A DNA stretch of 43,235 nt, from contig JAUIHW010000033.1 in the NCBI GenBank assembly GCA_030431775.1, positions 1 through 43,235 of the forward strand. The letters are read 5' to 3'. The position numbers were made by a program, and so were the translations under genes. The DNA is from Gammaproteobacteria bacterium (lineage in GTDB: Bacteria > Pseudomonadota > Gammaproteobacteria > Pseudomonadales > JAUIET01). The notes under the pieces are model-generated. The model searched no databases and was not told the DNA's origin. It worked only from the letters and a program-made list of their open reading frames with translations. Positions 356 through 17,576 of this stretch are shown here, piece by piece; the first letter of the stretch is position 1, and every line of letters starts with the position of its first letter.

Positions 356-721
356 TTGAAGCCAATTTTTAAGCCTGGAAAAAACATCGCTGTAAAAACA
401 CCAGCTCATGAATACGATTCAGTCGTGGCGTTCTACAGAGATGTATTGGGGTTCAGGCAACTACCCATTGATGAGCCCGACCCATTTGAATCGGCCTCTT
501 TTGAGTTTGGTGACAAGGTGCTATGGATTGACAGGATTGAAGGAATTAGCCAATCTGAGGTATGGCTCGAAGTCACTACGGATGACATCATTGCGGCGCA
601 GGAATATCTGAGAGCAAGCGGATGCAGTATTCGAAATGAAATTGAACGTTTGCCCGACTCGGTGAATGGCTTCTGGCTGAGCAGCCCTTCAAATATAATT
701 CATTTGGTGGTTGGCAGTTAG
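356..721 (+). CDS. VOC-family (glyoxalase/bleomycin-resistance fold) protein
   Basis: A 121-residue protein with one vicinal-oxygen-chelate module pair: N-terminal YDSVVAFYRDVLGF is the typical first helix after strand 1, and the C-terminal half has GFWLSSPSNIIHLV. The start is TTG at 356, supported by a strong AGGGAGG Shine-Dalgarno at 341-347, eight bases upstream. The expected metal ligands are not all evident (the second half ends in IIHLV rather than a clear Glu ligand), so substrate and activity are unknown. It precedes a second VOC gene, but with a 75-base gap. Fold assignment is good; function is not assigned. Confidence 0.8.
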   Translation: MKPIFKPGKNIAVKTPAHEYDSVVAFYRDVLGFRQLPIDEPDPFESASFEFGDKVLWIDRIEGISQSEVWLEVTTDDIIAAQEYLRASGCSIRNEIERLPDSVNGFWLSSPSNIIHLVVGS

Positions 722-796
722 CTATGCTGGCAACTCGAGTTAGCGTGCGAGCTTGAGTTTAGAGCGGAACACACAAAACAAACAGAGAGGTAGACT

Positions 797-1165
797 ATGC
801 TTGGTTACGTTACTTTGGGCTCAAACCAGTTCGAGCAGGCCGCATCGTTTTACGATGATCTGTTCGAGCTTTGCGGTGCAGGCCGCTTGATGGAACTTGA
901 CGGTTTTATTTTGTGGGGCACGTCATTGGACGAAGCTGCCGTCGCATTGACTAAACCCTACGATGGTCAACCAGCCACAGTTGGCAATGGAGTGATGGCG
1001 GCCATTCGAACTGACTCACAAGATGCCGTAAAGGCGCTTTACAGCAAGGCGCTGGAATTGGGTGGAACGGATGAAGGGGCGCCAGGTCAGCGCGGAGATG
1101 GTTTCTATGCGGCGTATTTCCGCGACCTGGATGGCAATAAGCTAAACGCTTTTTATTTGGGTTAA
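797..1165 (+). CDS. VOC-family protein
   Basis: A 122-residue protein with the sequence features of single-domain VOC proteins: MLGYVTLGSNQFEQAASFYDDLF at the start (strand 1 followed by the F-Y-D helix) and FYAAYFRDLDGNKLNAFY at the end, the usual F-x-D-P/L-D-G-N motif. The ATG at 797 follows an AGAGAGG ribosome site near 783. It is distinct in sequence from the VOC protein just upstream, so this is not a recent tandem duplicate. Substrate is unknown; relatives include glyoxalase-like and dioxygenase-like enzymes. Confidence 0.82.
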   Translation: MLGYVTLGSNQFEQAASFYDDLFELCGAGRLMELDGFILWGTSLDEAAVALTKPYDGQPATVGNGVMAAIRTDSQDAVKALYSKALELGGTDEGAPGQRGDGFYAAYFRDLDGNKLNAFYLG

Positions 1166-1196
1166 TTGCATCAGTGCTCGCACGCAGGTAGGCACC

Positions 1197-1607
1197 ATGG
1201 CAGGAATTACCGATCTGCAGGAGCTGATTGGCTCAATGTCGCCCGAGCTACAGCCTGGAGAATTTGTGTTTTGCACTGTGTCCGGGAAGTTGCAGGACTA
1301 TGTGCACATGAACTTGCTGGCTTCGTTTCAGGAACATGAGGGGCTGACCCTGGTTCTACCTTGTGCAGATGCAGACAATGCAAATCTGGAGTACAAAGGC
1401 AGGTTTCGCCAAATTACCTTGTCTGTACATTCCAGCCTGGATGCGGTTGGGCTGACGGCCACCGTTGCTGAGCAATTAACAAAATGTGGCATCAGCGCAA
1501 ATGTGCTGGCGGCCTATTATCATGACCATCTATTTGTGCAGACCGACAACGCCGAACGTGCGCTCACAGCGCTTAGAAAGCTGAGTAAGTCTGCGAGAGG
1601 TTTGTGA
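1197..1607 (+). CDS. ACT-domain-containing protein (COG3602-like)
   Basis: A 136-residue soluble protein. The N-terminal half (GEFVFCTVSG) and the C-terminal half (QITLSVHSSLDAVGLTATVAEQLTKCGIS, then VLAAYYHDHLFV) fit the two-ACT arrangement of small stand-alone ACT proteins; the second part matches the classic beta-alpha-beta ligand-binding pattern with a D-A-V-G-L turn. Such proteins are thought to bind amino acids, but no enzyme domain is attached. Gene starts 31 bases after the second VOC gene and may share its transcript. Family by pattern recognition; ligand unknown. Confidence 0.7.
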   Translation: MAGITDLQELIGSMSPELQPGEFVFCTVSGKLQDYVHMNLLASFQEHEGLTLVLPCADADNANLEYKGRFRQITLSVHSSLDAVGLTATVAEQLTKCGISANVLAAYYHDHLFVQTDNAERALTALRKLSKSARGL

Positions 1608-1657
1608 ATGTTGACGAGTTGCTGCATAAGCATCGCGGCTGGTTGATTGGTTATTGA

Positions 1658-2029
1658 ATGCCTGGAGAGAATGTATTGAACCCCGCCGACATCAAACCGG
1701 AAATAAATTTCGCCGACCTGGTAAAAATAGATGTTCGTGTGGGAACCATCGAACGGATAGAAGAGATTGAGGGCGCCGACAAGCTTATGCGCCTGTCAGT
1801 TGACTTTGGTGACCATACGCGCACGGTATTGGCCGGCATCAAACAGGAACGTGAACGACCGCAGGACATACAAGGCTTGCAGGCCTTGTTTGTTGTGAAT
1901 CTGCCACCAAGAAAAATCCACGGTGAAGTTTCCGAAGCCATGTTATTTGATATTGGCTATGAAGATGGTATTACGCCGGTACTGGCAATGCCTGAAATGC
2001 CGGTGCCGAACGGTACTCGCGCAGGTTAA
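1658..2029 (+). CDS. tRNA-binding OB-fold protein, CsaA/YgjH-like
   Basis: A 123-residue single-domain protein of the EMAP-II/tRNA-binding OB fold. Key pieces visible: FADLVKIDVRVGTIERIEEI (strand 1 with the D-V-R-V-G-x-I signature), DKLMRLSVDFGD, and the end motif NLPPRKIHGEVSEAML, which corresponds to the conserved N-L-x-P-x-x-x-x-G-x-x-S-E-x-M of this fold. CsaA and YgjH proteins bind tRNA structure and act as homodimers with a chaperone-like or trafficking role; this length is typical. The ATG at 1658 lies 50 bases after the ACT-domain gene. Assignment of fold is firm; the cellular role is inferred from relatives. Confidence 0.85.
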   Translation: MPGENVLNPADIKPEINFADLVKIDVRVGTIERIEEIEGADKLMRLSVDFGDHTRTVLAGIKQERERPQDIQGLQALFVVNLPPRKIHGEVSEAMLFDIGYEDGITPVLAMPEMPVPNGTRAG

Positions 2030-2137
2030 ACCGTTTCTATTACTGACACAGCACCCAGAAATGTCATTCGCCAGTGATCTAATCACTGGGCAGCGGCGTA
2101 ATTAGCTGCTCTGAATACTGGTTTGACTGCAACTTGA

Positions 2138-2986
2138 GGAGGGTGCCAGAAAACCAAGCAAGTTTTCGGTTCCAGCACAACTAATGCTCTAAGGCAACTC
2201 AAAATTGGCGTCGTTGGTTGTTCAGGGACGGGGAGCCCTACTGTAGAACTGCTTTTACGCTATCACACGAAAGAACTGGTCCTAATTGATTTTGATAGCA
2301 TTGAGGAAAGCAACTTAAACAGGATGCTAGTTTCTCGCAATCAGGATGCTGAGCTTAAGAGACCAAAGGTGGAACGAGCTGCGGAGTGGATAGAAGAATC
2401 AGGGCTTCCAACACGAGTCACGTCAATAGATGGCCTAGTCCCTTCAGATACTACAACAACTGCGCTCTCAGAGTGTGATGTCATTTTTGGCTGCGTTGAT
2501 AACGTCGTTGCAAGGCACGCAATCAACAAGATTGCCTGTGCTTACCTGATACCCTACTTTGATCTTGGAGTAGCTATCAAATCGAACAGGAATGGCGGTG
2601 ATATCCGGCATGCAGTTTCACGGTGCCACTATTTACAGCCTGACAGACCATGCCTATTGGATAGAGAGGCATACTCATCTGAAAGGCTTGCTGAAGAAAG
2701 CTACCGTCAAGATGACCCAGAGTTTCATAAGAACTTAAAGGAACTTGGCTACACCCAAGAACGAAATGAGATTCAAGCCGTTATGACTTTGACAATGCAG
2801 GCCGCCGTTATGGCTGTGGATGACTTGATGGCTCGCCTACATGGCTATAGAGTAGATTCGAACAGAAACTTTGATGAACAGGAGCATTCGTTTACTCATA
2901 CTCACTATGAACATAGAGCCCACGCCGGTGATAATTTCGCTCTGCGTAATTTTGTTGCGGCTGGGGATAGGCATGTGAGAATGTGA
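2138..2986 (+). pseudogene. 5'-truncated E1-like ThiF/MoeB-family adenylyltransferase
   Basis: The frame is open from just after a stop at 2135-2137 to the stop at 2984-2986 and encodes a complete E1-type adenylation core: VFGSSTTNALRQLKIGVVG (entry helix and first strand), C-S-G-T-G-S glycine loop, VLIDFDSIEESNLNR (D-x-D plus N-x-x-R), a lysine in KRPKVE, and FGCVDN. No ATG, GTG or TTG occurs in this frame before 2324, which lies downstream of the glycine loop, so a normal start codon is missing; starting at 2324 would delete the ATP site. I read this as a gene whose 5' end (possibly an extra N-terminal domain) was lost at a junction near 2.1 kb. E1-like enzymes adenylate the C-terminus of ubiquitin-like or sulfur-carrier proteins. 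The next gene, a DUF6527 protein, overlaps the stop. Confidence 0.75.
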
Positions 2987-3321
2987 TGTTAAAGTCTGCT
3001 AGGAAATTCATTCACCGGATATTCAGGCGGCTATCGGAATTTTTCGATAAGCCCTATTCAGTTATTTTTGTTGAAGGCCCGATAGATCACCCCAGCAATA
3101 AGGTTTTGTATGTCGTTGGTGTAAAAGATGAGCCTTGGCAAGTTGAAATGCTTTGCCCATGCGGTTGTGCGGAAAGAATCGTTCTGCCTGTGAACAACGA
3201 AATATCTCCAAGATGGACAGTGACTATTACAGATAGGCCGTCCTTATCACCATCGGTTTGGCGAACTAAAGGATGTAAGTCCCATTTCTTTTTAAGATCT
3301 GGAAGAATTAGATGGTGTTGA
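2986..3321 (+). CDS. DUF6527-family zinc-ribbon-like protein
   Basis: A 111-residue protein (ATG at 2986 overlapping the upstream stop as TGATG; a GTG at 2983 is the alternative). It shows the features I associate with DUF6527: a central W-Q-V-E-M-L-C-P-C-G-C-A-E-R-I-x-L stretch, then SLSPSVWRT, then GCKSHFF and a terminal GRIRWC. The Cys pattern C-P-C-G-C with a later GCxSH suggests a metal-binding knuckle. From memory, proteins of this family often sit beside ThiF/E1-like genes in ubiquitin-like conjugation loci of bacteria, which agrees with this context. Biochemical role unknown. It appears intact although its partner upstream is truncated. Confidence 0.75.
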   Translation: MLKSARKFIHRIFRRLSEFFDKPYSVIFVEGPIDHPSNKVLYVVGVKDEPWQVEMLCPCGCAERIVLPVNNEISPRWTVTITDRPSLSPSVWRTKGCKSHFFLRSGRIRWC

Positions 3322-3426
3322 ACCTTGGTGAGAAGAGAATTTCATCTCCACAGAGTTCAGGAATATCTCGTCAAATTCAGGAACATCACTATAGTTGAGT
3401 TGAGGGCTGGTTGAGCGACTCCCAGT

Positions 3427-3597
3427 TTATAACAGGCCTTTTTCTTCTGCTATTTCTTTCGATTTTTTCAGAATTTCTGCTGGTGTCAGTTGCGAATAGC
3501 CGCTGTTCTCGGCGCGAATAAATTTGACGCGTATCGCCTCTATGTTCCGGTTTTGATGCGCTGAACGTCTGGTTCGTTGTTCTGATTCTGTTGTCAT
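3427..3597 (-). CDS. Small (56-residue) third gene of the toxin-antitoxin operon
   Basis: ATG at 3597-3595 follows the antitoxin stop without a spacer base, and the frame runs to TAA at 3429-3427, giving 56 residues. The N-terminal 20 residues are polar and Arg/Gln-rich (SEQRTRRSAHQNRN); the rest reads IRVKFIRAENSGYSQLTPAEILKKS and resembles the C-terminal tail of ParD/CopG-type antitoxins (an A-E-x-S-G-x-S-x-L-T-P-E-I-L pattern) without an obvious ribbon-helix-helix. Tight packing argues for translation. It could be an accessory antitoxin or the leftover tail of a second antitoxin gene. Confidence 0.5.
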   Translation of the reverse strand: MTTESEQRTRRSAHQNRNIEAIRVKFIRAENSGYSQLTPAEILKKSKEIAEEKGLL

Positions 3598-3906
3598 TCA
3601 GATGCCCAGTCGAGCAGGCGTTAGTCGATAACCCATCGCCTTCATGATCGCGTTGATGTTTTCGAGACGGGGATTGCCTTTATTTGACAATGCCTTTTGT
3701 AGGCCTTGCCGAGTGATACCGATTTTTTCGGCCATAGCGGAAACGCCCTTAGCTCGCGCAATAATTCGCAAACCCGATAGCAGTGCCGCGCTGTCATCAT
3801 CCAGTGCGTAGGTTTCAAAAATCTCTGATAAAAAATCGTCAATTTCTTCCGGGTGCTGCGCGAAATAATCTTCGCTCAGTTCGTCAAATGATCTGTATTT
3901 AGTCAT
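3598..3906 (-). CDS. HigA-like antitoxin (HI1420/addiction module antidote family)
   Basis: A 102-residue protein with an N-terminal acidic toxin-neutralising region (DELSEDYFAQHPEEIDDFLSEIFE) and a C-terminal XRE-type helix-turn-helix (SAMAEKIGITRQGLQKALSNKGNP, then LENINAIMKAMGYRL). This is the pattern of the HI1420 antidote family (TIGR02684-like), where the second gene of the pair is the antitoxin. The start ATG at 3906 overlaps the toxin's 3' end by eight bases, so translation is coupled. It should bind the toxin and, through its HTH, the 18-bp palindrome upstream of the operon. Confidence 0.9.
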   Translation of the reverse strand: MTKYRSFDELSEDYFAQHPEEIDDFLSEIFETYALDDDSAALLSGLRIIARAKGVSAMAEKIGITRQGLQKALSNKGNPRLENINAIMKAMGYRLTPARLGI

Positions 3907-4452: not shown

Positions 4453-5571
4453 TCAAGACGCCTTCAGTTCGTACGGAGTGACCTCATTATTATCCACGGT
4501 GACCAGCTGAATCAGTTTTGGATGGATATACAGCCTCTCTCTACCGGCCTTTTGCTCAATCAGCACACCAATGCTCACCAATTTCTTTAGATATTCCGAC
4601 GCTGTTTGCCGTTTAGCTATATCTGCTTCCACCAAATTGGTTATGCGGCAATAGGGCTGCTCAAAAATAACATCGATTAGCTCTCGACTATAAATCTTCG
4701 GTAGCTGTTCTCGTACATAACCGGTCGTATGGTCAGCCAACTCACGAATGCTGAGAATTTTCTGTGTTGTCCACTGCGCCGTGCTTTCAACAGCCTCAAG
4801 CATATACAGCAGCCAGGGCTCCCAAGCCTGCTCTCGGGTCACAGCCAGCAGGCCGCTATAGTACTGAGCTTTATTAGCAATGATATAGCGACTCAAGTAC
4901 AAAATAGGCAGAGTAAGCAGCTCCTCTTGCACCAGATACAGGATATTGAGGATTCGGCCAGTACGACCATTGCCATCAGTAAAGGGGTGAATCGCCTCAA
5001 ACTGGTAGTGCATGACCGCCATACGAATCAGTGGGTCTAACTCCGGCTGCTCATGAAGAAAGCTTTCCCAATTGCTTAGCAGGTCTCGCAATACCTTTTC
5101 ACCTGCTGGCGGGGTGCTGATGATTTCGCCAGTTTTGTCGTTGGCCAGAGCGGTGCCCGGCACTTTGCGCACCGCCATTTCAACACCTTTAATCTGGCTA
5201 CAAATAGACTCGGCCATATTGGTGTTAATGGGTCTCTGCGCTAATGCCTGCCAACCTTCATATAGCGCTCTGCGGTAGCGAAGCGCTTCTTTAGTAGCCG
5301 TGTCAGCGTGGGCTTCATCATTATCTGCATACTGAAATAGCTTGTCAGTGGTAGTAACAATGTTTTCGATTTCTGAACTGTCTTTGGCTTCCAGTATAGG
5401 CAGAGTGTTGATCAGCATAGCCTGATTGGGAATAAGCTCAGCCGCTTGCTTAAGCTCAGCAAGGGCTACCCGTGCAGAAATACACTGCTTTAATACTGCC
5501 TTGGTTTCCAGCTCAATGCCTGGCGGCAATAAAGGAAGGTCGTTATATGGCTTTTCGGGGTGCCAGCTCAT
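4453..5571 (-). CDS. fic: Fic-family protein adenylyltransferase, SoFic-like
   Basis: A 372-residue Fic enzyme that transfers AMP from ATP to target hydroxyl groups. The active-site motif HPFTDGNGRTGR (residues about 195-206) is complete. An inhibitory motif of the N-terminal (class II) type, S-S-E-I-E-N at 65-70, should self-restrain activity by placing a Glu against the ATP site. The N-terminal Fic_N helix region (ALAELKQAAELIPNQ) and a C-terminal winged-helix-like region (CRITNLVEADIAKRQTASEYL) flank the Fic core. Length and sequence closely recall Shewanella oneidensis SoFic, also 372 residues as I remember it. The gene has its own promoter region with repeated operator boxes, so it is probably autoregulated. 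Targets are unknown. Confidence 0.93.
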   Translation of the reverse strand: MSWHPEKPYNDLPLLPPGIELETKAVLKQCISARVALAELKQAAELIPNQAMLINTLPILEAKDSSEIENIVTTTDKLFQYADNDEAHADTATKEALRYRRALYEGWQALAQRPINTNMAESICSQIKGVEMAVRKVPGTALANDKTGEIISTPPAGEKVLRDLLSNWESFLHEQPELDPLIRMAVMHYQFEAIHPFTDGNGRTGRILNILYLVQEELLTLPILYLSRYIIANKAQYYSGLLAVTREQAWEPWLLYMLEAVESTAQWTTQKILSIRELADHTTGYVREQLPKIYSRELIDVIFEQPYCRITNLVEADIAKRQTASEYLKKLVSIGVLIEQKAGRERLYIHPKLIQLVTVDNNEVTPYELKAS

Positions 5572-5591
5572 ATGTTTACTAAATTTATTTT

Positions 5592-5671
5592 TATCGACAT
5601 ATTCTGAGCATATGTCGATAGCATCGACACGTCAAGCAATTATGTCGATATATTTTATAAATATAGACATA
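5592..5671 (-). promoter_or_regulatory. Fic promoter with tandem inverted-repeat operators
   Basis: Two 29-bp inverted repeats sit side by side, 5592-5620 and 5622-5650, separated by one base. Each has the half-site TATCGACATA (left) and TATGTCGATA (right); the first pair has perfect 11-base arms around a 7-base centre, and the left arm of the second is weaker. A further near-perfect half-site lies at 5662-5671 (one mismatch), so boxes alternate in orientation along about 80 bases. A minus-strand promoter is embedded: TTGACG (5635-5630), 17 bases, TATGCT (5612-5607). Repressor binding here would block fic transcription; the Fic winged-helix region is the obvious but unproven candidate. Confidence 0.7.
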
Positions 5672-6042
5672 TAAGGTGGCTTTCCCTCAATAAATCCAGT
5701 TTTTGAGGAGATTAGAAGCGTTCTCCTTCGCAAACACAGGGTGCAGTGCAGGATACATACAACACTGAAAGTAACATCACAGTAATTGAAAAACCTAAAT
5801 CTCTTTCTAAATCAGATAGATAGACCTACCCATTGGGTCCTCTCCTGGGCACCATTACTATTTAACTAACGTAGCTCGATCTTCGGGGCCGCAGTTTCTG
5901 TACTCTAAATTCCCCAGAGGACTATTCAGTCAGGGCTCTCTATCCGCGCTACGCGCGTTAATGGTCCTGCCTCTCACATGACACACGTTGGCCCCACCAA
6001 CAAACCACTAACGACTGCGACTTTACTGAGCAGCAGATCACA
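5672..6042. other. Intergenic stretch without recognisable gene
   Basis: About 370 bases between the fic operators and the methyltransferase stop. I found no frame with a convincing start, ribosome site and protein-like composition, and no clear terminator or RNA structure. A short GC-rich run CGCGCTACGCGCG near 5947 has a look-alike near 13295, which I regard as compositional. The stretch may be debris from past insertions, in keeping with the accessory nature of the surroundings. Confidence 0.5.
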
Positions 6043-6798
6043 TCACACCATCGGCTTCTTTGAGACATAGACCCCGTAACTGTAGTAGTCGCGATACTTT
6101 TCGTAGAGGCTTGTTTCGTTCTGCTCCGCCTCAACGATGGCCACCGCCTCATCGCTCGCGCCATGCCGTTCGAGGAAGGCTTCAAACCGAGCTTGCATGG
6201 GCCGATAGTAGTTATCAAGCCAGCAATGGGCCGGCAGAACAAAGTATGCCTCCAGACTATAACCGTGCCGCTCAAGGATCTCGATCTTTGCCGAGGCGAC
6301 GTCGATCTCCGGGTACTCAGCCTCCCAATGGGACTGGAGCTCCGTCGGTCGTGTAGCGCTCAGCCATGTGATCTCGGAAACGATGAGCTTCCCACCCGGC
6401 TTCAGGAATCGGCCCCAGGCTGATATACCCGCCTCGAAGCCCATGTTGTAGACGGCCCCTTCGGACAAGATCACGTCGAATTCACCTTCATCAAACGGCA
6501 GGTCATCCATGGAACGGTTCAGCGTGGTGATCCTGTCCGCCACTCCGTAATCTCTGGCTCTGACTTGGAGCTCATCGAGAAACTCCGGCAGGAAGTCCAC
6601 GGCGGTGATGTCGGCATCCAGTTCCCTGGCCAGGAGAAGGGTTGATGCGCCGGTGCCGCAGCCAATATCCGCGACCTTCAAACGCCGCGAGCGATCGAGC
6701 CCCGCCAGCTCTAGCGCTCGTATTGTCTCAGCATCCCCACCTGGCCCCTGTCGTTCCGCAGGCCGGTGGAGATCCACGAGTAGTTGAAATTCGGTCAT
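6043..6798 (-). CDS. Class I SAM-dependent methyltransferase
   Basis: A 251-residue protein from the ATG at 6798 (MTEFQLLVDLH); the longer reading frame upstream has an unnatural composition. The Rossmann methyltransferase motifs are clear: VADIGCGTGASTLLLA (SAM-binding glycine loop), ITAVDFLPEF (acidic end of strand 2), DLPFDEGEFDVILSEGAVYNMGF, and LKPGGKLIVSEITWL. The C-terminal region is Tyr/Trp-rich and probably forms the substrate pocket, suggesting a small-molecule substrate. Its first codons lie inside a 40-bp repeat that recurs beyond hipB, so its original upstream region has probably been displaced. Substrate unknown. Confidence 0.88.
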   Translation of the reverse strand: MTEFQLLVDLHRPAERQGPGGDAETIRALELAGLDRSRRLKVADIGCGTGASTLLLARELDADITAVDFLPEFLDELQVRARDYGVADRITTLNRSMDDLPFDEGEFDVILSEGAVYNMGFEAGISAWGRFLKPGGKLIVSEITWLSATRPTELQSHWEAEYPEIDVASAKIEILERHGYSLEAYFVLPAHCWLDNYYRPMQARFEAFLERHGASDEAVAIVEAEQNETSLYEKYRDYYSYGVYVSKKPMV

Positions 6799-6817
6799 GG
6801 CCCTGTTTTGATCCTCA
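6778..6817. repeat. 40-bp direct repeat, copy A (overlaps methyltransferase start)
   Basis: The 40 bases at 6778-6817 recur at 8805-8844 in the same orientation with a single difference (T versus C near the right end). Both contain GAGTAGTTGAAATTCGGTCA followed by TGGCCCTGTTTTGA. Copy A holds the first seven codons of the methyltransferase and about 19 bases upstream; copy B holds the same fragment with no gene attached. The segment between the copies carries hipBA and a REP-like element. Confidence 0.9.
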
Positions 6818-6982
6818 TAAGTCGCCGGGTGTGCAGAGCCTGCGCGACAAGGACTGCTGGACGAACGCGTTCCCGGCACCCTTAGTGTGGTTGTGGTCGA
6901 GCAGGGAGATCAACGGCAGCGGCACGTGCTTGTGTCTGACTTCGGCCAGGGCGTCAAGGAACCAAAACCCTTCTACCCACAT
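6815..6982 (-). CDS. Possible 55-residue ORF, unrecognised
   Basis: A minus-strand frame from ATG at 6982 to TGA at 6817-6815 encodes 55 residues, with segments WVEGFWFLDALAEVRHKH and LISLLDHNHTKGAGNAF. Its composition is protein-like rather than random and it ends just ahead of the methyltransferase start (17 bases apart), so it could be a leader gene or the C-terminal remnant of a larger gene broken by rearrangement. I do not recognise a family and see no strong ribosome site. Low confidence. Confidence 0.3.
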   Translation of the reverse strand: MWVEGFWFLDALAEVRHKHVPLPLISLLDHNHTKGAGNAFVQQSLSRRLCTPGDL

Positions 6983-8894: not shown

Positions 8895-11582
8895 CTAACA
8901 TATTCGATTAGTCCTGGCGAGAACCCGCTCTTTCTCTTTCACTTGCTTGCGCAAGTATACCTTGTGTATTTCTTCCACCAACAATAAAACCAAAGCAATG
9001 CCGGCGAGTACCAGCCACTGCTCAATGGAGATGGGGCTGAGATCCAGTACCTTGCTGATACCCGGTGTATACATAGCGCCCACATGCACCAATTGAGCTA
9101 CTGGTACCGCCAGCACCAGGAAGGGGTTGGCAAAAAACCTGATGGCAAACAGCGAACGTGTTTCCGAGCGGCTGCACAGGGCATGAATGTTGCCAAAAAG
9201 CACCATCAACATCAGTGTCAGGTTACGGGCGTCTTCAATGGCTGCACCAGTGTTCATCAGGTAGGAATAGGTAGCGAACGCAAGTACGCCCATCGTAGTC
9301 CCCATGATCAGCACATGTTGAATGATATGGCTTTCGAAGATTGGCTCGGTGGGCCTACGAGGCACCTGTTTCAGCTCGTCTCCCTCTTTGGGCTCAAATG
9401 CCAGAGCAACATCCTGTAGGCCGTTGGCAACCAGATTGAGCCATAACAGTTGTACCGCAGTCATCGGCATCGGCAGCCCGGCCACCACAGTACAGAAGAA
9501 CAGCAGTAGCGCCGAAGCTCCGGTCGCCACTAACAGGGATATTACTTTACGGATATTGTTGTATACGATACGACCTTGTTCGATGCCGTCTACGATCGAC
9601 GCGAAATTGTCGTCGGTGATTATCAGGTCAGCGGTTTCCTTGGCGACATCGGTACCGCGTTTGCCCATAGCAATGCCGGCATTAGCACGGCGCATGGCTG
9701 GCGCGTCATTGACGCCGTCACCGGTTACTGCAACAAAATGACCCTGGCGCATAAAGCTGTCGACGATCTGTTCTTTCTGCTGTGGTTCGATGCGGGCAAA
9801 CAGCCTGGCATCACGAATCAGCTTATCGGCAGCATATTCACCGGCCTTGCCAGCTTCCCGAATCATCTTTCCTGTTACTACCGTGTCCTCCTTGCTGCAC
9901 AAACCCAACTCCAGGGATATGGAACGAGCAGTAGCGGGATGATCACCGGTGATCATCGCCACTTCTATTCCACCTGCACGGCAACGACTTATTGCGGACT
10001 TGGCTTCCGGCCTGACCGGGTCGATCATGCCCACCATGCCCAGGTAGGTCATTTCTCCCAACTCATCCATGGCATGCTTACCGTTCACCTTGCGATGCGC
10101 CAGGGCAAGTACCCGATATCCCCTGCTGGCCAGGTTTTCGAATTGGTCTTCGATCTGCTCGTGATTGATTGGTTCGCGTCCATCCGTGCCTTCCTGCCAC
10201 CGACACAGTTCCAGGAGTTTTTCCGGACTTCCCTTTACGTAGAGATGGGGCTGACTGGCATCCAGGTTGAGACTGCCGCTGAAAGCGCGTTCCGATTCAT
10301 AAGGTATAAGATCAAGTTGACGATGATTGTTGCGCTCCTGGCTCAACGACAAACCAAGCTTCTTCGCCAATACAAGAAAGGCCACATCAACTATGTCTCC
10401 GTCCGACACCCATTCGCCGCCGGAATAATTGAGATGACTTTCGTTGGCCAGCAAACCCGTCAGGCAGAGGTTCCGAAGTCTGTCCAGTTTCTCTCCGATA
10501 ACTTCACCTCCGGGCGCCACTCCTTCACCGGTAATTCTGAAACTGGAACCATCGGGCAGTATCGCCGTACGAATAGTCAGCTCATTCACCGTCAAGGTGC
10601 CGGTCTTGTCCGAACAGATAAACGTACAGGAACCCAACGCTTCCACCGCTACCAGTTTGCGAATGATCACATTCAGTTTTGCCATGCGTCGCATGCCAAT
10701 GGCGAGTGCAACTGTCAGCGCAGCCGGCAATCCTTCTGGAATCGTTGATACCGCCAGTCCAATTGCCATCATGATCATGCCCTCGGTGCCGTAGCCACCG
10801 CGGATAATCATCATGCCAACCAACAGAAGAATGCCTGCCAGAATTGCGGCCGCCACCTGGTACGTGAAACGACGCACGCGGATCATCAAAGGTGGCTCTG
10901 ATATTCGCTCCGCAGTTACCCGGTGGGCAATGTGGCCCAGTTGGGTGTGCAGGCCGGTAGACATTACCTCGCCCTGACCACGACCGTGGGTCACGATGGA
11001 GCCGGCAAAACACTGATTGACCCGGTCGGCTAGTGGTGCGTGCTCCATAACAATGGCATCGGCGTTCTTGGTGACCGCGTTGGATTCACCGGTCATCAGA
11101 GATTCATCAATGGCAAGGCTGGCACTGGCCTGCAATTTGATGTCGGCGGGCACCTTGTCGCCAGACGACAAAAACACCCAGTCACCAGGCACTAACTCTT
11201 CTGCATCGATCTTGCGCGGCTCTCCATCACGAATAACGCGCGCCTCACCACGAGTCATCTCCCGCAGTGCTGCGGCGGAACGCTGTGCCGAGTATTCCTG
11301 CACAGTTCCTATGCTGGCGTTGAGCAGCAGCACCGCCATGATAAAAATCGCATTTGGCAATTGCGACAGCGCCAGCGAGGCAAGTGCTGCAATCAGCAGA
11401 ATATAAATAAAAGGGCTTAGAAACTGCCGCAGGAATATTTGAGGAACGCCTGGCAGCGGTGGCGCTGGCAGCCGGTTGTAGCCGTATTGCTCACGATGCT
11501 GCGCCACCTCCTCGGAGGACAATCCTACTCGAGGACTCTGCGGATTGCTCCCAGCTTCAACTTCTGCTGCCAGTTCGCTCAA
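8895..11582 (-). CDS. P-type ATPase, P2A-like cation pump with atypical ion site
   Basis: About 895 residues with all catalytic modules: actuator TGES (near 164-167), phosphorylation loop CSDKTGTLT (Asp about 325), and hinge motif TGDGVNDAPA. It has a cation-ATPase N-terminal piece (GLSSEEVAQHREQYGYN) and about ten membrane segments. PEGLP in M4 places it near Ca2+ pumps. However, aligned by eye to SERCA, the M5 ligands Asn768 and Glu771 are Gly and Ala (LLVATGASALL) and the M6 Thr799-Asp800 are Ala-Asn (NLVANGLQDVAL), so the transported ion is uncertain. The start is a guess: TTG at 11582 is the first candidate in frame and lacks a clear ribosome site; a TTG at Leu21 is another choice. Confidence 0.9.
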   Translation of the reverse strand: MSELAAEVEAGSNPQSPRVGLSSEEVAQHREQYGYNRLPAPPLPGVPQIFLRQFLSPFIYILLIAALASLALSQLPNAIFIMAVLLLNASIGTVQEYSAQRSAAALREMTRGEARVIRDGEPRKIDAEELVPGDWVFLSSGDKVPADIKLQASASLAIDESLMTGESNAVTKNADAIVMEHAPLADRVNQCFAGSIVTHGRGQGEVMSTGLHTQLGHIAHRVTAERISEPPLMIRVRRFTYQVAAAILAGILLLVGMMIIRGGYGTEGMIMMAIGLAVSTIPEGLPAALTVALAIGMRRMAKLNVIIRKLVAVEALGSCTFICSDKTGTLTVNELTIRTAILPDGSSFRITGEGVAPGGEVIGEKLDRLRNLCLTGLLANESHLNYSGGEWVSDGDIVDVAFLVLAKKLGLSLSQERNNHRQLDLIPYESERAFSGSLNLDASQPHLYVKGSPEKLLELCRWQEGTDGREPINHEQIEDQFENLASRGYRVLALAHRKVNGKHAMDELGEMTYLGMVGMIDPVRPEAKSAISRCRAGGIEVAMITGDHPATARSISLELGLCSKEDTVVTGKMIREAGKAGEYAADKLIRDARLFARIEPQQKEQIVDSFMRQGHFVAVTGDGVNDAPAMRRANAGIAMGKRGTDVAKETADLIITDDNFASIVDGIEQGRIVYNNIRKVISLLVATGASALLLFFCTVVAGLPMPMTAVQLLWLNLVANGLQDVALAFEPKEGDELKQVPRRPTEPIFESHIIQHVLIMGTTMGVLAFATYSYLMNTGAAIEDARNLTLMLMVLFGNIHALCSRSETRSLFAIRFFANPFLVLAVPVAQLVHVGAMYTPGISKVLDLSPISIEQWLVLAGIALVLLLVEEIHKVYLRKQVKEKERVLARTNRIC

Positions 11583-11877
11583 TTTGCTACCACAATAGCA
11601 ATCGGTATGGCACCGGGTGATCAGAGCCGGGCAGGCGCAACATGGAGCTGGGAATTCCTATGCAGCTATAGACCAGCAGACCGTCGTCTTCGAGTATTGA
11701 TTGTGAACCCATGCGGAGCACCATTCTTCACTTGAATTTCTCATCGAATAGAAAGTAAAAACCATGGGTTACAGAATTCTTACAACCGCGTAGCAGGGCA
11801 TTGACCTTTATCAAGAAAGTTACCGATTAATGCTGTTGTGCCTGCCTTGCCACACAGGTTCTCCAACGCAGGACGCT
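11583..11877. other. Intergenic stretch upstream of the P-type ATPase
   Basis: Roughly 295 bases between the ATPase start region and the DUF1214 stop. The ATPase frame stays open for some distance past 11582 but without ATG, so the true start or an earlier disruption could lie here. I see no other gene, no obvious terminator, and no repeat. Confidence 0.4.
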
Positions 11878-13309: not shown

Positions 13310-14239
13310 CTATGGTTTGTCTGCCACGTCCGCATTGTCGCCCGGCTCTTCCGCAGGCGGCTGTTCAACATAGACCAGCATTTGGTCTCCCTGGCGCTTG
13401 GCAATTTTGCGCAGTTTCTCAACCAGGATTTCGGTTAGCAGCTGGCCGGCGGGCAAAATGAGTATACCCTGGTCATTACAAAGATCGCGAGTGAGTGCCA
13501 TACCCGCGCGCAGACTGCCAGCCGTCAGCTTTTGCTCCTGTAAGGATTCCTGATACTGCTGCTCATTTACAATGTGGCTGAGGAAACGATCAACAATTTC
13601 TGCGTCGTAACGAGAAGACTTATTGCTGCTCAGGTACTCGATTGCTTCGTTAGTGGTCAGGCAGCTGTCCAGCAGCTTACCCCGCAGCAACGCATCAAAG
13701 TCTTTTGCAACACAAAGCACTTTGGCAAGAAGCTGTATTTCATCGCCCTTCAGGCCTTGCGGATAACCGCTGCCGTCGATTAACTCGCAGTGCTGATAAA
13801 TGGTTTCGGCGACCTTCTCTAATGGCTGCAGAACCATCAGAGCATCGTGGGCGATTTCCGGGTGGCGTCGGAATAGCTGAAATTCATCTTTGTCAAGCCT
13901 GACTACCGGAGAGGAGGTCAATGAGTCCGGCAAAGCCAGTTTGCCGATATCACAAAGTATCGCTGCCAGATACAGAGTTTGCGCGTCATCTTGGTTCAGT
14001 CCCAGCTCCAAGGCGAATTGCCGTGTTCGGTGGCCGAGACGCCGCAGAGACTCGGCGCTTCTACCGCTGCGTTCGCCGAACAAGCTGGAAAACACTTCCA
14101 CTGTTGCCGTATAGGCCGCTTCCAACGCCTGCTTCGACAAAAACAGCTCTCTGGAGCGGTTTTCCAACAACTGCTCAGCGTGTTTTCTGGCGGTGCGTTC
14201 GCGGTCAAGCGCGCGCTGCAGTCGCTCCGGTGTGCTCAT
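13310..14239 (-). CDS. Degenerate HD-GYP protein, likely partner of the H-NOX/c-di-GMP system
   Basis: A 309-residue protein. Residues 1-45 form an Arg/Glu-rich helix (LDRERTARKHAEQLLENRSREL) nearly matching the start of the histidine kinase HnoK downstream. Residues 45-220 are an HD-GYP domain, but the HD pair is Cys96-Asp97 (LCDIGK) and the HHE motif is H150-C151-E152; GYP at 158-160 and H126 (RRHPEIA) remain. Metal binding is therefore probably impaired. In Shewanella a degenerate HD-GYP, HnoD, tunes the phosphodiesterase HnoB; this protein differs by lacking a receiver domain. A C-terminal region (230-309) has a GMALTRDLCNDQGILILPAGQ module seen after many HD-GYP domains. Divergent from hnoB. 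Function inferred from context. Confidence 0.85.
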   Translation of the reverse strand: MSTPERLQRALDRERTARKHAEQLLENRSRELFLSKQALEAAYTATVEVFSSLFGERSGRSAESLRRLGHRTRQFALELGLNQDDAQTLYLAAILCDIGKLALPDSLTSSPVVRLDKDEFQLFRRHPEIAHDALMVLQPLEKVAETIYQHCELIDGSGYPQGLKGDEIQLLAKVLCVAKDFDALLRGKLLDSCLTTNEAIEYLSSNKSSRYDAEIVDRFLSHIVNEQQYQESLQEQKLTAGSLRAGMALTRDLCNDQGILILPAGQLLTEILVEKLRKIAKRQGDQMLVYVEQPPAEEPGDNADVADKP

Positions 14240-14444
14240 GGTTTGTACAAAGGGACCGGCGTTGTATTAATGACTGTTCTGTACTGTTCGTTAAGTCGGC
14301 AAGCTGTCGGAAAACTGTAGTCGTTTTCGACCAGCAGTCAGCTGCTCCTGAAGATCGGCTCACACGGGCTACGAAAGTGGCCTACACTCAATCAGATAGG
14401 CTGACGCAGATTTCAGCTTTCATGGAATGAAATGAGCCCGCAGT
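14240..14444. promoter_or_regulatory. Divergent control region of the H-NOX cluster
   Basis: About 205 bases between the HD-GYP gene and hnoB must hold both promoters. An inverted repeat TTTCAT-GGA-ATGAAA occupies 14418-14432, ending 12 bases before the hnoB start, where it would overlap the ribosome-binding area. I see no convincing FNR/DNR or NsrR-type site by eye. No small gene is apparent. Confidence 0.4.
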
Positions 14445-16070
14445 ATGGAAAACTGCAAGATTCTCCTTGTTGATGACGAGCCCAATATACTGCGCTCCGT
14501 CCGTCGGGTATTACGAACCGGCCCGTATCAGATATACAGCGCTGAAAGTGCAGCGGCCGCACTGGATATTCTGGAGCAGCAGCCGGTAGACATCGTGATC
14601 AGCGATCATCGCATGCCAGGCATGACTGGTTCACAATTGTTTGCTCGAATTCGCAATCAATTCCCTTCCGTGGTTGGCATCATGCTGAGTGGACAAGCGG
14701 ATATGGACTCCGTCATCGAGGCTGTCAATGAGGGAAATATCTATAAGTTTTTGCACAAGCCCTGGAGTAATGATGGCTTACGGCAAGTCGTTGAAGAAGC
14801 GCATGCGCTCAGCGTAAAAAGGCTTCATCAGCCTTCCGGCGTACTGACACTAGAGCAATTGTGCGAGCAACTGGATGTTGCTGAATTACGCTCCGAGAGT
14901 GTCATTCTGATGCTTGAATTGAGGAATGCGAATGAACTGCGAGGTCGTTCTGACCACACAGAGTGCAGAGCGCAGCTGAAAGAACTGTTGCAGCAAAGCA
15001 GCGTTGCTTCTTTCATGGGGCTCAGTTTTCCGGTTTCTGAGCTGGAAGGCGACCTGTTTGCTTTGGTGTGCAATGACCTTGGGGATGCTCAGCTCGAAAA
15101 ATTCCTGCGTGAATTATCATTACACACTCTAGGCAAATCAAACCCGTTTTCTCCGGTTTATGGCGTGGGTTATGCGCCTGTTCACAAAGAGCTGACGATC
15201 GTAAAAAGCTGTCGTAACGCGTTGAAGGCGCTTACTGCCAGTGTGACCAATGGTAATGCAATCCGCTACAGCGAAGACATTCGTAATAATCTGCACCAGC
15301 GACAGTCGCTGGAACATGATATGCGCCGGGGCCTGGATAATGGCGAGTTTTTTCTGATGCTCCAACCGCAAGTTCGCTGCAGTGACAGGCAGGTTGTTGG
15401 TGCAGAGGCTTTGTGCCGCTGGGTTCATGGCAACCGGGGAATGGTTTCACCACAGGTGTTTATTGATCTCGCAGAAGAAAATGGCTTTATCAATCAACTG
15501 GGATTCTGGATTATTGAAAAAGGCTGTCAAATTCTGTCGAATCTGGTGACGCAGGGCAGCTATCCTGGAAAGCTAAGTATCAACGTGTCCCCGCGTCAGT
15601 TTGGGCAGCGCGCCTGGGTTGATTTTTTGCTGACGTTTCTGGCCGAGGGTTCAATACCAGCCAGTCAGCTTGAGCTGGAAATAACCGAGAGCAGCATCAT
15701 GCTGGATGCTGAACATTCCAAAGTAGTGTTGCAGGAATTGCGCGATGCGGGAATTCGCATCGCAATGGATGATTTTGGAACTGGTCATTCATCACTGGGC
15801 CAGATCAGTGACCTGCAGGTAGACGTGCTGAAATTTGATCGCTCTCTGATTACCAATATCGAGCAGGACGAAAAAAGTCGTCGCTTGCTGCGCAACCTGG
15901 TGCTGATGGCGAATGACCTCGGACTGGAAACAATTGCTGAAGGTGTAGAGACGCCGGGACAAGCCCAAATGTGCACTGATTTTGGCTGCTCATTGATACA
16001 AGGCTATGCCTACTTCAAACCTATGAGCAAAGAAGACTTTTTAAGCCTCTTAAAGGACGGAGATAGCTAA
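14445..16070 (+). CDS. hnoB: REC-EAL response regulator, c-di-GMP phosphodiesterase (HnoB-like)
   Basis: A 541-residue regulator. The receiver domain (1-120) has D10-D11, phosphoacceptor D54 (VISDHRMPG), S82 (MLSGQAD) and K105 (HKPWS). Residues about 150-285 look like a degenerate GGDEF-type linker with no GGDEF motif. The EAL domain (285-541) has EALCRW (Glu about 321), INVSPRQF, LEITES, MDDFGTGHSSLG, LKFDRSL and AEGVET, i.e. the expected metal ligands and catalytic residues, so it should hydrolyse c-di-GMP. It heads the operon with hnoX (overlapping TAATG) and hnoK, matching the Shewanella HnoB arrangement in which HnoK phosphorylates HnoB and NO-bound H-NOX inhibits the kinase. Confidence 0.9.
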   Translation: MENCKILLVDDEPNILRSVRRVLRTGPYQIYSAESAAAALDILEQQPVDIVISDHRMPGMTGSQLFARIRNQFPSVVGIMLSGQADMDSVIEAVNEGNIYKFLHKPWSNDGLRQVVEEAHALSVKRLHQPSGVLTLEQLCEQLDVAELRSESVILMLELRNANELRGRSDHTECRAQLKELLQQSSVASFMGLSFPVSELEGDLFALVCNDLGDAQLEKFLRELSLHTLGKSNPFSPVYGVGYAPVHKELTIVKSCRNALKALTASVTNGNAIRYSEDIRNNLHQRQSLEHDMRRGLDNGEFFLMLQPQVRCSDRQVVGAEALCRWVHGNRGMVSPQVFIDLAEENGFINQLGFWIIEKGCQILSNLVTQGSYPGKLSINVSPRQFGQRAWVDFLLTFLAEGSIPASQLELEITESSIMLDAEHSKVVLQELRDAGIRIAMDDFGTGHSSLGQISDLQVDVLKFDRSLITNIEQDEKSRRLLRNLVLMANDLGLETIAEGVETPGQAQMCTDFGCSLIQGYAYFKPMSKEDFLSLLKDGDS

Positions 16071-16609
16071 TGAAAGGCATTGTATTTTGTTTGCTTAATG
16101 AAATGGTGGAAGAGCAGTTCGGCTTGGAAGCCTGGGATGATTTGCTGGACGCGGTTGGCACTGATGGAGTCTATGTGGCTACTGAAACCTATGATGATGC
16201 CGAACTCTTGGCGCTGGTTGCTGCGGCGGAAAAGGCAACCGGCATAGCGGCGGCCGATCTGGTCAGGCAGTTTGGCGCCTATATGATCCCGCATTTTGCA
16301 AAAAACTATGCAACTTTCTTTGAAAATCAGACGAGCCTGAAGGCTTTTCTGCTCAGTGTTGACCAGGTAATTCATGTTGAAGTTCGAAAATTATACCCGG
16401 ATGCCGGCTTGCCGACCTTCGACTATGAGGATGAGCAAGACAACGAGCTGACAATGATTTACAAATCACCGCGAAAGCTTTGTGCTTTGGCAGAAGGCTT
16501 AATTGCCGGATCTGCAGCACATTTCGGCGAACAATATGAACTGCGACATGACATCTGCATGCACAAGGGTGACGATCACTGTGCGCTGCACATGACGCTG
16601 ACATCCTGA
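16070..16609 (+). CDS. hnoX: H-NOX heme nitric-oxide sensor
   Basis: A 179-residue stand-alone H-NOX (HNOB) domain. The proximal heme ligand is H102 in DQVIHVEVRKLYPDAGLP, P115 is the conserved heme-distorting proline, and Y131-x-S-x-R135 (YKSPR) binds the heme propionates. There is no sign of an O2-stabilising distal tyrosine at the usual place, so NO selectivity is expected. C138, H160, C163 and C171 have exactly the spacing of the zinc/redox site described for Shewanella H-NOX. The start overlaps the hnoB stop by one base and hnoK follows after 13 bases, placing sensor, kinase and output in one operon. Confidence 0.95.
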   Translation: MKGIVFCLLNEMVEEQFGLEAWDDLLDAVGTDGVYVATETYDDAELLALVAAAEKATGIAAADLVRQFGAYMIPHFAKNYATFFENQTSLKAFLLSVDQVIHVEVRKLYPDAGLPTFDYEDEQDNELTMIYKSPRKLCALAEGLIAGSAAHFGEQYELRHDICMHKGDDHCALHMTLTS

Positions 16610-16622
16610 ACCGGGCGACCCT

Positions 16623-17576
16623 GTGTCCACAGTACTGGAACGCGCATTACAACGTGAGCGGCTTGCCAGAAAAACAGCAGAGTCACTACTGGAGGACAAA
16701 TCCAGGGAGTTGTACCAATCCTACAACCGGCTTGAGGCAGCCAATGAGGAACTGAAGCGCAATCAAATGCAGCTGGTGCAGGCTGAAAAGATGGCCTCAC
16801 TTGGTCTGCTTTCGGCCGGTGTTGCCCATGAAATTAATAACCCCATCGGTTTTGTGGCAAGCAACGTGGCCATTCTGCGCGAGTATGCCCCCAGGTTTTT
16901 TGCTACCTATGAGAAATTGCTGACGCTGCTGCAGCTGGATGAAAAAGACCCTGACTTCACACCGCTTAAAGCATCAATTCTGGCGTGGTTGAATGACCAG
17001 GATATCCCCTATCTTGTGGAAGATACGGGCGAGCTGTTGGACGAGATTGAGCAAGGGCTTATTCGTGTCCGGGAGATCGTAGAAAGCCTGCAGGCATTCG
17101 CTCGCAGCGGCACGGAGCAACAACAGGAGATCGACCTTCGAGCCTGTATCCGCAACACGATAGCTTTGGTGAAGAATGATTCCAGACGTCACTGCGAGCT
17201 GTTAGATGAGTTGCGGGAGATTCCACTGATTCGGGGCGATGGCAGCAAGCTCGGACAGGTTTTTCTTAACCTGATTGTCAACGCAATACAGGCGCATGAA
17301 GGCCAGGCAGGCACTGTTGTTCTGAGTTCTGAAAGCGACGACAAATGGGTGACCATTCGTGTAGCCGATACCGGCAAAGGGATGCCTGCGGAGATATGTG
17401 CGCGAATCTTTGAGCCCTTTTTCACAACAAAGGAGGAAGGTGAAGGAACCGGCCTGGGGCTTGCGGTAAGCAAAGGGATACTTGATGAGCACGGCGCCGA
17501 GGTGGCTGTAGAATCGCAGCCGGGTCAGGGCACGACCTTTGTTTTGCGTTTCCCGTTGATCGAAAGCGAAGACTGA
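16623..17576 (+). CDS. hnoK: H-NOX-associated sensor histidine kinase (HnoK-like)
   Basis: A 317-residue soluble kinase starting at GTG 16623. Residues 1-50 form a coiled-coil-like helix ([20 protein letters not shown]) that the divergent HD-GYP protein shares. The H box is [14 protein letters not shown] (His69), followed by the N box [11 protein letters not shown]1 DTGKGM, F box FEPFFTTK, and G2 GTGLGLAV. There are no membrane segments and no own sensor domain, as expected for a kinase governed in trans by H-NOX. NO-bound H-NOX should inhibit autophosphorylation. Predicted targets are the HnoB receiver, and perhaps others; the HD-GYP protein has no receiver and must connect differently. Confidence 0.92.

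Follow-up and report, generated by a model that had tools for sequence, protein, structure and literature searches.

The 43,235-nucleotide stretch of gammaproteobacterial DNA analysed here (contig JAUIHW010000033.1, referred to as the window) carries an H-NOX locus that holds, beside the usual sensor and kinase, a degenerate HD-GYP protein whose receiver is missing and whose N-terminus is a helix shared with the kinase. Three genes follow one another on the plus strand: a predicted HnoB-type REC-EAL phosphodiesterase (14445–16070; Pfam Response_reg and EAL, with the receiver domain, REC, aligning to positions 1–117 of the NCBIfam model NF053512 at 166 bits), an H-NOX sensor (16070–16609; Pfam HNOB, E 4e-44; nearest solved structures 2kii, 4u9b and 4u99) and an HnoK-type histidine kinase (16623–17576; Pfam HATPase_c, with HisKA slightly under its cut-off). 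Divergent from these genes across 205 bp, and 1.9 kb from the H-NOX gene in the same locus, lies the gene of the 309-aa HD-GYP protein (13310–14239, minus strand; Pfam HD_5, E 6e-35). A preliminary description of this DNA had assigned the REC-EAL/H-NOX/kinase genes to a network that conveys nitric oxide (NO) to cyclic di-GMP (c-di-GMP), and both gene content and Pfam domains bear this out: H-NOX, kinase and REC-EAL genes stand together as in the NO network of Shewanella oneidensis, whose protein set the window matches (PMC6335343, PMC8846402).

A degenerate HD-GYP protein without a receiver

In S. oneidensis the network includes the response regulator HnoD, which has a degenerate HD-GYP domain and suppresses HnoB by direct interaction (PMC6335343), its dead domain being described elsewhere as a diguanylate cyclase instead (PMC8738867). 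NosR of Burkholderia is likewise a REC protein that is phosphorylated and whose HD-GYP motif is altered, and it belongs to a NosP system (PMC12570481). The window protein resembles HnoD in being a degenerate HD-GYP beside HnoB, H-NOX and HnoK, and an ancestor of the HnoD type is probable; in a comparison made with HnoD by description, it differs in carrying a helix of H-NOX partners where the response regulator has its receiver. Pfam places HD_5 at residues 58–215 of the window protein with no match ahead of it, and finds no Response_reg domain in the protein. The same picture emerges from NF053512, the model of the REC-HD-GYP protein 'NosR': residues 21–291 align to model positions 153–422 only, and the score of 222.5 bits lies under the curated cut-off of 400 bits. 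The receiver of an HnoD/NosR-type response regulator is therefore absent, as the preliminary description had claimed. Input from a NosP/FIST sensor was considered and rejected, since a FIST match is absent from both the genome of the window (G000) and that of its congener, G001 (here and below, G numbers denote genomes and L numbers fetched loci).

G001, the only other genome of the genus in the sample, is a gammaproteobacterial metagenome-assembled genome, and its record JAUIET010000007.1 encodes an ortholog of the HD-GYP protein that is also receiver-less (297 aa, 52% identical). The order there is hnoB-hnoX-hnoK-hdgyp, so that H-NOX, kinase and REC-EAL genes again stand together and hdgyp comes last, on the same strand, 14 bp behind hnoK and 1.1 kb downstream of H-NOX. 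The order of the genes thus differs between the two species and the HD-GYP gene is still found in the H-NOX locus. Loss of the receiver through an assembly error or a frameshift was rejected on the basis of these arrangements, because just 205 bp separate the divergent genes of the window and the G001 gene starts 14 bp behind hnoK.

Seven metal-ligand positions were compared in an alignment of 56 HD-GYP domains. Four of them are lost from the HD-GYP domain of the window protein (residues 58–226; 13562–14068, minus strand), namely H64S, H96C of the HD motif, H151C of the HHE motif, and D179K, and the same S64, C96, C151 and K179 are found in G001. The replacement of the HD histidine and of the second HHE histidine by cysteine had been recognized before; the changes at 64 and 179 come in addition. 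Because these four substitutions break the full ligand set, the protein was rejected as a catalytic HD-GYP phosphodiesterase. GYP, H126, H150, E152 and D182 are intact in both species. The domain that follows (approximately residues 227–296; 13352–13561, minus strand; match of the local profile HDC at 235–291) is common to the REC-HD-GYP proteins of H-NOX loci. All seven positions are kept in 22 of the 56 domains, and at least one is lost in every one of the 25 REC-HD-GYP proteins with this C-terminal domain; L034_0, which lacks REC because its contig begins there, was left out of the counts. Because those 25 response regulators have also lost ligands, degeneracy is common in HD-GYP proteins of this type, and it is the missing receiver that is unusual.

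A tree of the 56 domains, rooted for drawing only, joins the window protein and its congener as a pair (support 100/99). The 30-row side of a further branch (100/99) holds this pair together with all 25 REC-HD-GYP proteins that have the C-terminal domain, and the 26 other rows lie opposite. In a survey of 258 genomes of the class, the 26 other proteins that, among the matches listed down to E about 7e-21, reach at least residue 280 all lie in open frames of at least 409 aa, compared with 318 for the window, and no third receiver-less case was seen among those matches. No second HnoD-like protein was seen in the genome of the window, where the alignments of four other HD-GYP matches start no earlier than residue 74, at 27–29% identity, nor did G001 give any other match at E ≤ 1e-20. 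One scan of genome contigs with the protein as single query found nothing, and a second returned, besides the G001 record, one further HD-GYP (32% over residues 79–220); a phage search gave, among the matches listed, only unannotated contigs at 26–29%.

A helix shared with HnoK and its association with H-NOX

What, then, stands in the place of the receiver? The N-terminus of the HD-GYP protein is identical to that of HnoK at 27 of 42 positions (64%; BLASTP E 7e-10 for this single comparison), which substantiates the sharing of a helix claimed earlier, and when the 44-residue HD-GYP helix is searched against its own genome at E ≤ 10 it matches only itself and HnoK. The two segments lie at residues 8–43 of the HD-GYP protein (14111–14218, minus strand) and at 16638–16754 (plus strand) in hnoK. 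A profile named A2, built from 28 N-termini of H-NOX partners and free of HD-GYP proteins, matches the HD-GYP helix of the window at E 1.5e-12, that of G001 at E 2.2e-10 and that of HnoK, one of its own rows, at E 6e-16. Both HD-GYP proteins are identical at 14 of the 16 helix columns conserved at 75% or more. The two species agree at 25 of 38 helix positions (66%) and at 15 of the next 18 residues (83%), as against 78 of 165 (47%) for the HD part. An AlphaFold2 model predicts a single helix at residues 4–58, with block means of the per-residue confidence score pLDDT at 71–84 over the first 30 residues; over its whole length the model is poor (mean pLDDT 43) and could not serve for a fold search. 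The helix is absent from all 25 REC-HD-GYP proteins of the fetched loci that share the C-terminal domain.

The distribution of the helix was surveyed with two profiles. The first had five rows, two of them the HD-GYP proteins, and was run on 274 genomes of the class regardless of H-NOX. Outside the own genome it gave nine matches of at least 31 bits, and in all nine loci (L102–L110) H-NOX is followed directly by the helix protein, with the helix N-terminal in eight. Weaker matches were mixed: only L119 of 11 further loci fetched has H-NOX, and those at 14–16 bits inside kinases (L115, L116, L117, L120) look generic. A2, from which L105 (misaligned) and ten partners whose helix core a regular expression had missed were omitted, was run on 390 genomes of the order, as was the Pfam HNOB model. 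Since A2 was built from neighbours of H-NOX, some of the adjacency among similar proteins follows from its design; that the helix is nearly absent elsewhere does not. The helix was found in 68 genomes (82 sites) and H-NOX in 102 (126 sites), and 67 of the 68 helix genomes have H-NOX (Fisher p 6e-48), or, by subtraction of the 22 genomes of the order that supplied A2 rows, 45 of 46. Directly downstream of an H-NOX gene, within 400 bp, lie 68 of the 82 helix sites, and 68 of the 126 H-NOX genes have the helix there. A sample of 299 genomes of the phylum gave the helix in 30 and H-NOX in 80, with H-NOX present in all 30 helix genomes (p 6e-20; p 3e-18 when the three genomes that had supplied profile rows are set aside) and 24 of 33 helix sites adjoining H-NOX.

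The 44-residue HD-GYP helix was also searched against 72,556 plasmid records. Ten records matched at E ≤ 1, and because just one of them falls below 0.01, the weight of this evidence lies in where the matches are located and not in their scores: nine of the ten stand directly behind an H-NOX gene, seven in Vibrio and two in Persicobacter (Bacteroidota). The tenth, from Rhizobium sullae (E 0.3), gives no match to the local profiles of H-NOX and helix in its 8.1 kb region.

The helix might be suspected of being a generic coiled coil or S-helix, a segment of approximately 40 residues that precedes output domains (PMC1592074). As the whole story this was rejected, because the profile is nearly confined to H-NOX genomes; the S-helix is widespread and usually lies between two domains, and the helix described here is mostly N-terminal. 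The helix is thus tied to H-NOX across the loci surveyed and is not a general module lacking such a link.

The partners that carry the helix differ in their outputs. Among 105 H-NOX reading frames from fetched loci, which are not a random set (a split H-NOX gene at L160 is counted twice, and seven frames have no downstream gene), 71 are followed directly by a helix partner, of which 60 are kinases and 11 are GGDEF/EAL enzymes. The carriers are kinases, including those of Vibrio coralliilyticus and Pseudoalteromonas xiamenensis, hybrid kinases, and GGDEF/EAL proteins such as those of Bradyrhizobium, Comamonadaceae and Sinorhizobium (split). A kinase-specific role was therefore rejected for the helix. 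When the first 260 residues were compared with Pfam at E ≤ 0.01, the HNOBA domain (PF07701) matched none of the 70 partners with the helix and 20 of the 24 signalling partners that lack it, several of these matches lying under Pfam's own cut-off (5 of 7 inspected singly). Of the four helix-less partners without HNOBA, one has a weak helix (L119, 14 bits), another is split with the helix on its first piece (L169), and a third is a metal hydrolase falsely called as signalling (L135). Because non-kinase partners of H-NOX carry the helix, in the place where others have HNOBA, the helix follows the sensor and not the kinase. Both elements sit at the N-terminus of H-NOX partners; the helix differs from HNOBA in being a segment of approximately 40 residues, and no protein was seen with both. 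That the helix was not seen together with HNOBA, and that its outputs vary, fit an element that couples partners to H-NOX better than one that dimerizes kinases.

Covariation was computed over 67 non-redundant H-NOX/helix pairs and gave a mean of 0.257 for the top 20 column pairs, compared with 0.149 in shuffles; 12 of the 20 fall in H-NOX residues 8–43 and the rest at 90–165. Two co-inherited classes can be told apart by H-NOX residues 8, 22, 39 and 43 (window numbering) and by the helix residue three positions before RER. Where that residue is A, H-NOX has E or D at 39 in 23 of 28 cases and D43 in 27 of 28; where it is R or K, H-NOX has G39 in 36 of 38 and E8 in 29 of 38. The HD-GYP helix belongs to the class of its own H-NOX.

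Proposed H-NOX docking and alternative explanations

The hypothesis that we favor is that a stand-alone H-NOX would grip and control its partner through the N-terminal helix, and that an HnoD-like HD-GYP protein has exchanged its receiver for this helix and become a second direct client of H-NOX. We regard this as probable from what can be read in the genomes, namely the missing receiver, the lost metal ligands, the shared helix, the arrangement conserved in a second species and the linkage of helix to H-NOX. The ancestor would have been a response regulator of the HnoD kind, with REC and a dead HD-GYP domain, whose effect on HnoB was that of an allosteric brake. Within this genus the receiver would have been replaced by the helix, and with it a phosphate input by a sensor-docking input. 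H-NOX would then bind two targets, HnoK and the HD-GYP protein; the NO state would reach the brake directly and phosphate-free, the brake presumably acting on HnoB, while HnoK would still control HnoB through phosphotransfer. One possible sense of such wiring is that NO would stop HnoK, leaving less phospho-HnoB, and at the same time set the HD-GYP brake, for a sharper rise in c-di-GMP. The N-terminal domain of HnoK is said, in work by Rao in 2017, to be the site of H-NOX. On the side of the sensor, hydrogen-deuterium exchange mass spectrometry maps the HnoK contact to H-NOX helices A–C and F (PMC7108781). A broader form of the hypothesis, that the helix is a portable H-NOX docking tag, alternative to HNOBA and spread through Pseudomonadota and at least one genus of Bacteroidota, which was moved onto a dead HD-GYP to make a two-armed NO circuit, we hold to be evenly balanced between right and wrong.

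Direct docking of the HD-GYP protein on H-NOX is a prediction from sequence, and several observations weigh against it. A search of the PDB with the kinase helix gave no chain that carries the helix and no solved complex, the matches being to two unrelated proteins, a C-type lectin (E 7e-6, with no stretch passing alone) and DctB (E 0.2). On a quick tree of H-NOX the helix class shows just three changes, and because of this the covariation reflects common descent of the pair and not contact. Fourteen of the 82 helix sites in the order (two of them the HD-GYP proteins, and 13 in H-NOX genomes) and nine of the 33 in the phylum sample are not directly behind H-NOX; the partner at L109 has its helix internally and not at the N-terminus; one helix genome of the order, G193, has no H-NOX match, its helix match being weak (E 5e-4); and the receiver-less helix HD-GYP arrangement was found in two genomes only.

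The preliminary description had proposed instead that the HD-GYP helix pairs with that of HnoK in mixed coiled coils, giving hetero-oligomers in which the kinase would control the HD-GYP protein in the absence of phosphotransfer. The identity of 64% over 42 residues is compatible with such pairing, as is the fact that each helix continues towards its output domain, and coiled coils formed by signalling helices ahead of kinase and HD-GYP domains are known (PMC1592074). However, GGDEF/EAL partners of H-NOX also carry the helix, which stands where others have HNOBA and whose spread follows H-NOX, and R, E and A are among its best conserved columns, which would go beyond the needs of a hydrophobic heptad. 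For these reasons mixed coiled coils are not the best reading and seem unlikely. The two ideas could also be combined: kinases of the HnoK kind are dimers, and a parallel dimer of helices might be what H-NOX binds, with heterodimers of HnoK and the HD-GYP protein as a common platform. The present data do not separate docking from dimerization; such a scheme requires two functions of one 40-residue helix, and we consider it quite improbable. With four ligands gone from the HD site, the protein might have no output of its own and bind H-NOX merely to titrate it from HnoK, with which a free second docking protein would compete. Yet the HD and C-terminal domains have been kept, and GYP, H126, H150, E152 and D182 with them, in both species, and a mere decoy is accordingly very doubtful. 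It is most unlikely that the helix is the leftover of a gene fusion and has no partner role, the HD-GYP protein being a constitutive brake or a c-di-GMP receptor. The restriction to two genomes would suit such a leftover, but the helix is better kept between the species than the HD domains are, and the gene stayed in the locus when the gene order changed.

Relative to the systems described so far, docking on H-NOX would make the circuit a variant of the H-NOX/HnoD circuit, and this variant is itself new. The claim of a new H-NOX wiring in the preliminary description thus stands as regards the loss of the receiver input and the new variant, and its direct contact between kinase and HD-GYP protein ranks below docking on H-NOX. 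With NosR the window protein shares the HD-GYP part of NF053512 and neither REC nor a FIST sensor. With the H-NOX-associated c-di-GMP enzymes (HaCE) it shares the position of a helix-bearing c-di-GMP output protein beside H-NOX, the difference being that the output here is a dead HD-GYP that shares its H-NOX with a kinase. In the parts of the open-access literature that were covered, neither a receiver-less HD-GYP of H-NOX loci nor an account of the helix was found; many H-NOX papers are in journals outside it, and the absence is weak evidence. If docking through the helix holds true, sequence alone would tell which proteins an H-NOX addresses, whether or not they are kinases and however distant their genes, and a response regulator could exchange a phosphate input for a sensor-docking one. 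A short common helix also makes the transfer of the NO state from a stand-alone H-NOX to diverse partners directly testable with peptides and helix swaps.

Other helix loci and surroundings of the window genes

At L070 (G225, 5019–6874) one H-NOX gene is followed by two successive kinases that both begin with the partner helix, which appears to be another case of one sensor with two helix clients. L108 (G631) has two H-NOX genes in tandem with a helix-bearing hybrid kinase behind each. Helix kinases with no adjoining H-NOX, in genomes that have H-NOX elsewhere, occur at L122 and L125 (G051, G010), L123 and L124 (G012, G053), and L126 and L127 (G313, G365); those of L122 and L125 follow an Hpt protein, and that of L123 has a PAS domain after the helix. 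These kinases, remote from H-NOX, may possibly be its clients in trans. Hybrid kinases of family f247 (L143–L147) have a weak N-terminal helix (20–22 bits) and are encoded away from H-NOX in genomes that have it; for two of these genomes the H-NOX locus was also fetched (L151, L152), and there H-NOX has an HNOBA-GGDEF partner that lacks the helix. In G193 (L130, 4448–7446) a weakly helix-like kinase and a REC-HD-GYP of the degenerate type are encoded divergently, which would suit a pair that has outlived its sensor. L154 (G753, 393–3756) has H-NOX, a helix hybrid kinase and then a REC-HD-GYP with all seven ligand positions, unlike the degenerate type. Two genes are split over two reading frames and are either decayed or mis-sequenced: the H-NOX gene of L160 (G910, 1090–1654) and the helix-bearing H-NOX partner of L169 (S. 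fredii, 4513–6521).

Between the divergent genes of the window no FNR-like box was found at up to two mismatches, and across the whole window the 21 FNR-like matches are at chance level (19.6 expected). One FNR-like palindrome with a single mismatch lies at 11801–11814, approximately 220 bp before the start of a P-type ATPase-like gene (8895–11582, minus strand) that was named by eye.

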